DNA of 64,000 bases from positions 1,364,001-1,428,000 of the forward strand of contig NC_014759.1 of assembly GCF_000183425.1 (NCBI RefSeq), written 5' to 3'. The notes below the pieces were generated by a model that saw nothing but the letters and a program-made list of their open reading frames with translations, was not told where the DNA came from and ran no database searches. Source of the DNA: Marivirga tractuosa DSM 4126. Its GTDB lineage: Bacteria > Bacteroidota > Bacteroidia > Cytophagales > Cyclobacteriaceae. The position numbers and the translations under genes were made by a program. Positions 44,078 to 47,949 of this stretch are shown piece after piece; positions within the stretch are counted from its first letter, which is position 1; every line of letters begins with the position of its first letter.

Positions 44078-45263
44078 CTAAACCAATGCTTCTTGATTTA
44101 CTATTTCTTTAAAAATATTTTCTGAAAGCTGAACCCAATATAAATTCGGATTATCCTTTTTCAATTCTTCCAGTTGTTGAAATTGGCTTTTCGCTATCCT
44201 ATAACCTTCCTCTTTATGTAAAACATCTAAGCCTTGAATAGGGAGACTATTATCAAAACCAGCTATAAAATAAATATCCTCCGCAGAACTATTTGAATAG
44301 CTCTTGTCGTGTTTCTTCAATATTTTAGCAATTGACAAATTATATCTTGAATCTTTTAAATTTGATAAAACAGCTAGAGCGGTTGGAAAACTACCAGCTC
44401 CTTTCCCTTTTACAAACTGCTCCCCTGTATATTCTGCATCTACCAGTATTCCATTATATTCATTTTCAATATTATAGAAATCATGGCTCTCATTTACCAG
44501 TTGTGGTTCTACTTTAGCAGTGATTTCACCCGCTACTTCTTGCGCCTCTCCAATCAATTTTATTTTTAAATGATGTTTCTGAGCAAAGTCTTTTATGTAT
44601 TCATCTAAATAATTTATTCCCTGCAATGGGATTTCGTTTGGATGTACAAATACTCCAAAAGCATGATAAATCATAATGGATAATTTAAAGCGAGTGTCTT
44701 CTCCGCTTACATCAGAATACGGGTCCAATTCCGCAAAACCCAACGCTTGAGCCTCTTTCAATGCATCTTCATAGCCCTGATTTTCACTTACCATTTTAGA
44801 TAGAATGAAATTACAAGTCCCATTTGCAATGGCTTTAATCGACTTTACATGATCCGAATTGAAGTGCTGATCGAGTAATCTTAAAATAGGGACACTTCCG
44901 CAAACGGCTCCTTCATAAAAGAACTTAACCTGATGCTTTTCACGCAATTCCAGAATTTCCTTATGATAAAGTGCTACCATCTTTTTATTAGCACTCACTA
45001 CAGATTTCCCTTTTTCAAAAGCCTTTTTTACAATGTTAAAAGCTTCTTCAGGATCATTGATTAATTCTATAATGATATCTAAATCAGTATTATTTAGAAT
45101 TTCATCTGCCTGATTGGTAAGGATTCCATTGGGTAATTCTAATTCTCTATTTTTATTAATATTTTTAACGGATATTTTTTCAATTGAAATCCCGTATTTT
45201 TCATTTTGCTGTAATGCCTTATAAACTCCTGAGCCTACAACTCCCAGTCCGAATAAGCCTGCT

Positions 45264-45277
<14 letters not shown>
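44078..45277 (-). CDS. hom: Homoserine dehydrogenase
   Basis: 399 residues with the NAD(P) motif FGLGVVGSGVY (about 9-19), NKKMVALYHKEIL, ANGTCNFILSKM and FAELDPYSDVSGEDTRFKLS, the classic homoserine dehydrogenase signatures. It reduces aspartate semialdehyde to homoserine, feeding methionine and threonine. A C-terminal ACT domain is not obvious. It overlaps the end of metX by 14 bases and is the last gene of the metY-metX-hom operon. Confidence 0.95.
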
Positions 45278-47655
<2,378 letters not shown>

Positions 47656-47742: not shown

Positions 47743-47763
47743 AAAGGGTGTAATTTTCCCTTT
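47743..47763 (-). terminator. Weak terminator-like hairpin in the met leader
   Basis: On the minus strand AAAGGG (47763-47758) pairs with CCCTTT (47748-47743), followed by an interrupted T-run (TCAGTTTTAA). It lies between the leader peptide and metY and may act as an attenuator. Weak and unproven. Confidence 0.4.
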
Positions 47764-47794
47764 AGATTATCGAAATAAATCCAAATAGAATTGA

Positions 47795-47813
47795 GTTGTT
47801 GATTAACAACAAC
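47795..47813 (-). promoter_or_regulatory. Hairpin overlapping the Cys codons and stop of the leader peptide
   Basis: GTTGTTG pairs with CAACAAC across a five-base loop (TTAAT) that contains the stop codon. The TGT Cys codons of the leader peptide form the upstream arm. A ribosome waiting for charged Cys-tRNA, or terminating, would cover or disrupt the stem. Inferred role. Confidence 0.5.
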
Positions 47814-47949
47814 AGCACATACACATTCGCATGTATGCAATGGAAATAATAGGATTAAGCTTAGAAGCTCTTTTTGTTGATTTTGAATTCTTAGCCGAGT
47901 TGGCTGACTTGACGAGCTCGCTAAAACCGAAGAAATGTATGTTGTTCAT
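47803..47949 (-). CDS. Met/Cys-rich leader peptide of the metYX-hom operon
   Basis: 48 residues starting MNNIHFFGFS and ending MRMCMCCCC; eight of the last nine residues contain sulfur, encoded as ATG CGA ATG TGT ATG TGC TGT TGT TGT before TAA. The ATG is seven bases after the riboswitch P1 stem. The middle is Ser/Lys-rich and shows no known domain. The position, size and terminal codons fit an attenuation leader responding to charged Met- and Cys-tRNA. Not experimentally known as far as I can tell. Confidence 0.7.
   Translation of the reverse strand: MNNIHFFGFSELVKSANSAKNSKSTKRASKLNPIISIAYMRMCMCCCC

Follow-up and report, generated by a model that had tools for sequence, protein, structure and literature searches.

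In known SAM-I (S-box, RF00162) systems the expression platform targets either a terminator or the structural gene itself. The locus described here lies in a 64,000-nt stretch of DNA from the marine bacterium Marivirga tractuosa (the window). It resembles those systems in having an aptamer above the gathering threshold before methionine genes. It differs in its first downstream element, which is a leader ORF carrying Cys and Met codons. Polycysteine small ORFs (sORFs) serve mycobacteria as attenuators that are reported to respond to cysteine (Canestrari 2020, as cited in excerpts of PMC9094748 and PMC13236596), and an excerpt of PMC1262725 presents candidate Cys leaders in Actinobacteria. As far as these excerpts go, the likeness extends to a short ORF, a run of Cys codons near its stop and a position before sulfur genes. 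The mycobacterial sORFs are leaderless according to the title of the cited paper, whereas the ORF in the window follows a 94-nt aptamer, belongs to another phylum and has Met codons mixed in. Judged from sequence, the aptamer ahead of it should keep it away from the 5′ end of its mRNA.

Other described systems share single parts of the arrangement. In Rhodobacterales, uORFC-8-2 precedes cysS and combines tandem Cys codons, a terminator and a proposed ribosome-mediated attenuation (PMC8632094, excerpt). Its two Cys codons are usually at positions 14 and 15, it is tied to cysS only, and the excerpt mentions no riboswitch. The leader in the window falls outside this family, with metY as its gene, nearest named records in Bacteroidota and five Cys codons at its end. 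The ubiG operon of Clostridium acetobutylicum has a Cys-specific T-box together with an S-box and antisense RNA (Andre 2008, in an excerpt of PMC2940859), and likewise puts one sulfur operon under sensors for both SAM and tRNA-Cys. There, cysteine would be sensed by the T-box, said not to be fully functional, and SAM acts via antisense RNAs; the excerpt mentions no leader peptide. The metA gene of Sinorhizobium is similar in that a SAM riboswitch comes with an upstream AUG and with a terminator ahead of the working start (PMC9373788, abstract). In that abstract, however, the riboswitch is SAM-II, the two AUGs share a frame and there is no amino-acid-specific leader.

No description of a SAM-I aptamer with a Cys leader was found in open-licence PMC full texts, which leaves novelty unproven. 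An excerpt on a Flavobacterium mentions clues, in general terms, for leader-peptide attenuation before amino-acid operons (PMC9723704), and another describes a Bacteroides whose long 5′ UTRs contain sORFs (PMC7366714); a related leader may already be on record in one or the other. As far as the open-licence literature goes, the parts are of known kinds, and their combination and its spread are new.

The metY leader region in the window

All features of the window given here lie on the minus strand. The aptamer (48050-47957; 94 nt; RF00162, 76 bits against a gathering threshold of 44.4, E 4.6e-16) is complete, covering model positions 1-108. A 7-nt spacer (47956-47950) leads to the ATG of a 48-codon ORF ending in TAA (47949-47803), translated as MNNIHFFGFSELVKSANSAKNSKSTKRASKLNPIISIAYMRMCMCCCC. 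Its 3′ end reads ATG CGA ATG TGT ATG TGC TGT TGT TGT TAA. The last nine codons, M-R-M-C-M-C-C-C-C (47806..47832), include three Met and five Cys, eight of nine being sulfur amino acids, and form the proposed stall site. The next gene, 204 nt past the stop, is metY, encoding O-acetylhomoserine sulfhydrylase (46267..47598; TIGR01326, 680 bits, cut-off 495, E 1.1e-204). It is followed by a metX-like homoserine O-acyltransferase gene (45264..46352 as listed; TIGR01392, E 4.8e-88, under the curated NCBIfam cut-offs), whose real start is probably further inside, and by hom, encoding homoserine dehydrogenase (44078..45277; PRK06349 above cut-off; PF00742). The initial annotation had described this ORF with its Met/Cys ending and had placed it between a SAM-I aptamer and these three genes. 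The ORF reading and the family matches (RF00162, TIGR01326) agree on both points. Cys and Met thus belong to the same pathway as the operon, as they do for the sulfite reductase and PAPS reductase of a second operon described below. No T-box was matched in Rfam; run over the full window with gathering thresholds, cmscan gave SAM and one tRNA only.

An open leader stands behind the aptamer in all ten genomes of the genus group (G000-G009; Marivirga and near it). The gene after it is metY in seven, a gene followed by metY in two, and a contig end in one; the intervening gene we take to be OsmC-like, from our own recognition of its sequence rather than from a profile. In G003 and G004 the leader ATG overlaps the last aptamer base, and these two were therefore missed by the automatic leader count. 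Among four close species with leaders of equal length, each pair shows 15 to 25 nt differences within body codons whose amino acid changes. The last 11 codons show synonymous changes only, with no amino-acid-changing difference. The expectation that the terminal run would be conserved and the middle variable was thus borne out at this range. The second leader of the genus, before a metZ-like gene, differs by 0 to 2 nt in its tail and by 6 to 21 nt in its body (changing codons, four species). Across the wider genus the metY tails vary (CCSC, MRMRMCCCC, CMHCCC, CCCRCMRMCK). Among the matches listed, from which records of the genome itself may be excluded, the nearest named metY records are one Bacteroidetes MAG and two Marivirga species.

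The spacer and the 3′ strand of helix P1 together form the leader start region, with P1 spanning -8 to -15 relative to the leader ATG in the window. An excerpt of PMC9976891 names adenines at -3, -6, -12 and -13, with low structure, as initiation determinants of Bacteroidia. Upstream of the AUG of 96 distinct leaders, adenine frequencies are 65% at -3, 65% at -6, 75% at -12 and 69% at -13. Positions -12 and -13 fall within P1; because the adenines from -12 to -14 are part of the aptamer, they give no independent evidence. The spacing of the AUG is independent. For 91 of the 96, the distance from the aptamer to the chosen AUG is 7 to 11 nt, where 0 to 20 was allowed and the in-frame ATG nearest 9 nt was taken, a choice that favours tight spacing. 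From this geometry, a P1 stabilised by SAM should mask the leader start.

Downstream of the leader, the terminator scan found no intrinsic terminator before metY in the window. A predicted hairpin, GUUGUUG-UUAAU-CAACAAC (47795..47813; region fold z -2.23), is made of parts of three Cys codons and the sequence just past the stop, with 87% of cells paired in eight genus sequences and no covariation. A weak candidate antiterminator-like helix, UUUGGAUU/AAUCUAAA (47761..47785; 95% of cells paired, no double changes in the same number of genus sequences), competes with AAAGGG/CCCUUU (47743..47763; 83% of cells paired), a weak candidate for a terminator-like hairpin, whose U tract is broken. A slid control was equally good for this hairpin, and the terminator scan does not call it. 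None of these structures covaries in the eight genus sequences. Folding was modelled for the RNA not covered by a ribosome, placed either on the first Cys codon (stalled) or at the stop. In the window the weak hairpin formed with P 0.51 in the stalled state and 0.39 at the stop, against the expected direction. The scan, the absent covariation and the lack of a clear switch in folding speak against an intrinsic terminator at this metY.

Spread of the leader among relatives

We searched 59 related genomes for SAM-I and inspected every one of the 120 places that turned up; they are spread over 52 genomes and include the one in the window. A named metY set was drawn from the best 80 of at least 585 MetY relatives; a covariance model built from 27 aptamers found an aptamer upstream in 75 of these 80, and two of the five without one have short upstream sequence. 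The two sets partly overlap through shared genomes and yield the 96 distinct leaders. To count as a leader, an ORF had to begin with an ATG no more than 20 nt from the aptamer and to carry three or more Cys among its last 12 residues. Such an ORF follows the aptamer in 52 of the 75 named metY loci (from the best 80 of at least 585), against 0.3% of shuffles. For the relatives' metY leaders, a Cys-rich ORF is in place in 24 of 35, against 0.29% of dinucleotide shuffles. The counts are 11 of 21 for metB/metZ/MGL-like genes and 13 of 20 for other genes, with shuffles at 0 to 0.29% over all gene classes. None of 40 metH SAM-I loci and none of four metX loci has such a leader. The metH loci serve as an internal control: the aptamer class is the same, the gene follows at a median of 54 nt and there is no leader.

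Carriers among the matches listed include Chryseosolibacter, Fulvivirga, Pontibacter, Pedobacter, Mucilaginibacter and Solitalea. The other 23 of the 75 named loci (from the best 80 of at least 585) fall short of the Cys count as defined, in several ways. A Cys run is present in two (L121, L187), with an ATG that overlaps the aptamer, and one locus (L192) has four Cys in mid-peptide. Four more have a Cys leader that is separated from the aptamer by 172 to 358 nt (L172, L186, L193, L196). In eight, which are Algoriphagus, Cyclobacterium or Echinicola, the ORF is in place and the Cys run is missing. The four distant leaders each end in CCMP; by their titles they come from two Chitinophagaceae, one Chitinophagales and one Bacteroidota.

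Within our samples of the matches listed, the leader is scarce outside the group of Marivirga's relatives. In the phylum-wide best 30 among the matches listed, several of which precede metY-like genes, no Cys run adjoins the aptamer. Two match loosely: L229 has an ORF with scattered Cys 26 nt away, and the ORF of L224 is 369 nt away and inside the gene. Forty further loci of the class, among the matches listed, include three with a leader adjoining the aptamer, all from family f22 and all before metY. In the same family, a Met/Cys-rich ORF lies 132 nt from the aptamer at L261. A 13-aa ORF lies 172 nt away at L265. No locus of family f25 among these 40 has such a leader. One of its metY SAM-I loci (L264) carries a leader richer in Met than in Cys, ending SMRMRMPMSCFSYMCA. 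Elsewhere, SAM-I aptamers with Cys-rich leaders precede genes that are presumably TonB-receptor-like, transporter-like and ATP-grasp-like, names that we gave from sequence rather than from profiles (L109, L094, L095, L053, L075, L082).

The distance from leader stop to gene has a median of 134 nt over the 96 leaders. Strong terminators, below -10 kcal/mol, follow 8.3% of them against 2.1% of shuffles, a slight enrichment. The Cys run pairs with sequence up to 70 nt past the stop better than in shuffles (Fisher p 6e-4); the signal is modest, with p<0.05 reached in 11 of 96, against 4 of 96 (p 0.80) for a control segment. One group of metY loci (L123:1384-1434, L124, L125, L127, L129-L132, L138, L140-L142, L147) shares a hairpin without an Rfam match after the leader stop, consisting of a CAACA segment and then a three-part hairpin with a conserved GUGAC loop. 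In eight gapless sequences 97.7% of its cells pair, and five pairs have double changes. For a structure drawn from these same sequences, the covariation score exceeds all 500 shuffles and the number of pair types does not. At a relaxed Rfam threshold, nine of these loci gave SAM and sub-gathering matches only.

Cysteine leaders before sulfite reductase

The genome of the window has a second SAM-I aptamer with a Cys leader (MNKLKIYISHNLQIDLHDQSLEYMSISKSNNQISICCCSNCCC; G000:C2:3520991-3526834, L047 and L310). The operon behind it runs metZ-like gene (just under cut-off), sulfite reductase, tetrapyrrole methylase, NAD-binding protein and PAPS reductase. A third SAM-I aptamer, before metH, has no leader. 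CysM is found in the genome above cut-off. For a second enzyme, of which the Pfam-matched piece alone was scored, the closest families are cysteate synthase and cystathionine beta-synthase, both under their cut-offs.

Among relatives, Cys leaders with SAM-I precede sulfite reductase in L072 and L083. We also read 30 of 71 sulfite reductase places, which occur in 69 of 146 genomes; two of the 30 have little upstream sequence, and one is the window genome's own, inside its operon. No SAM-I was found in these 30 loci of the order at E up to 0.1. A loose Cys criterion picked out six of them, and in three (L273, L294, L296) a run of at least three Cys lies within 320 nt of sulfite reductase, with no SAM-I found. 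As read from these positions, behind SAM-I in the second operon and alone before sulfite reductase in relatives, the leader appears to be a separable cysteine module. Two Cys leaders stand in tandem before sulfite reductase in L083 and L296.

U-tract hairpins follow the Cys leaders before sulfite reductase. Folded by ribosome position, L294 gave a terminator probability of 0.00 when stalled versus 0.96 at the stop, and leader 1 of L296 gave 0.15 versus 0.85. These two are predicted to act as a textbook switch, in which a ribosome at the Cys codons would lead to antitermination and one at the stop to termination. In L072, L083 leader 2, L273 and L296 leader 2 the terminator was kept in every modelled state. 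A switch was thus predicted in two of the seven modules folded, and the window is among the other five. Folding gave no support to an antiterminator drawn by eye for leader 2 of L083.

Frame of the leader and its proposed role

Loci were also picked by a tandem UGY run irrespective of its frame. In 80 of the 81 distinct ones, the run shares an open frame with the aptamer-proximal AUG; over the same span the +1 frame is open in 3 of 81 and the +2 frame in 24 of 81. The conserved frame suggests that the leader is translated. The UGY repeat might instead be an RNA motif only, untranslated, as its ability to pair with downstream CAACA segments would allow. Against this stand the frame test and the mixed codon usage of the 96 leaders (UGU 328, UGC 179), and we reject this reading, whose probability is next to negligible. 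In the window genome itself, Cys-Cys-Cys-Cys-stop occurs twice in 4.5 Mb, once at this leader and once out of frame within a cation-transporter-like gene, and the reversed control pattern does not occur in the same 4.5 Mb. The last 12 residues of the 96 leaders are 44% Cys and 9.7% Met, against 1.9% and 1.3% in the remainder; these leaders were picked for Cys, not for Met. The initial description of the leader as Met/Cys-rich therefore holds, with Cys foremost and Met secondary. A peptide that is itself a small functional product, binding metals or acting in redox chemistry rather than serving as a translation sensor, is very improbable. Cys clusters could bind metals, and the end of the peptide is conserved. 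The body, however, is unconstrained within the genus, the number and spacing of Cys differ between leaders (longest runs 1 to 7), and the identified gene neighbours are mostly sulfur genes.

We consider it likely that the metY 5′ region is a SAM-I riboswitch and a Cys (and Met) leader attenuator, two sensors in series. With SAM low, P1 would be loose and the leader start region open, so that the leader is translated; with SAM high, P1 would mask the start, as the geometry suggests. When Cys-tRNA (and Met-tRNA) is scarce, the ribosome would slow in the terminal run and the downstream RNA would stay 'on'. A ribosome that finishes and leaves would let an 'off' structure form or Rho act, a step for which the folding support comes from relatives. 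The metY operon would be fully on only with SAM low and cysteine short. The position of the Cys leader behind SAM-I, its spread, the in-frame run and the Cys leaders with a predicted switch together make it very probable that SAM-I gates a Cys (and Met) attenuator here. The initial proposal of attenuation stacked on SAM sensing thus stands as regards a widespread, in-frame Met/Cys leader directly behind SAM-I with its tail kept. Its wording as classic attenuation is not supported for the window, where neither a good intrinsic terminator nor a covarying antiterminator turned up ahead of metY; the switch is predicted only in relatives' Cys leaders before sulfite reductase. For the broader idea we see an even chance: SAM-I would govern the sensor and not the enzyme, forming a nested two-metabolite logic gate in much of Bacteroidia that balances methionine and cysteine synthesis, with a movable leader that also works alone or in tandem.

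The two sensors could also work in parallel and independently, SAM-I through transcription or mRNA decay and the leader through Rho access or a terminator, with P1 not controlling leader translation. The SAM-I-less leaders before sulfite reductase (L273, L294, L296) and those 172 to 358 nt from the aptamer show that the two can be uncoupled. Independence does not require the AUG spacing seen in 91 of 96 leaders, and two AUGs of the genus even overlap the last aptamer base; we regard this alternative as rather doubtful. Compatible with sensors in series, and a tentative but quite real possibility, is a Rho-dependent polarity in which leader translation sets Rho loading before metY and no hairpin switch is involved. 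The long median distance from leader stop to gene and the few strong intrinsic terminators after the leaders favour it, and an excerpt of PMC1262725 offers the same for actinobacterial Cys leaders without hairpins. The intrinsic terminators of the sulfite reductase modules speak against it, as does the covarying hairpin that one set of metY loci carries past the leader. The sign could also be reversed: plentiful cysteine, with the run completed, would turn metY on and homocysteine would be made only when sulfur suffices. MetY competes with cysteine synthesis for sulfide, which counts in favour, and the weak hairpin in the window leans slightly this way (0.51 stalled, 0.39 at the stop). A leader before sulfite reductase and PAPS reductase, however, is most readily understood as induced when cysteine runs short, and both predicted switches (L294, L296 leader 1) have that sign, which makes the reversed sign unlikely.

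Should two sensors in series be correct, they would bring amino-acid leader-peptide control of sulfur metabolism to Bacteroidota and would place a riboswitch for a small molecule and an amino-acid sensor that works through translation on the same transcript. They would also hint at how these bacteria split sulfide between methionine and cysteine. Pedobacter carries the arrangement and is genetically tractable according to the title of PMC12181424; the idea is therefore directly testable. In four Pedobacter loci (L188, L189, L194, L195), two similar hairpins are seen by eye after the leader, one CUUCC/GGAAG-like and one GC-rich before UACGC.
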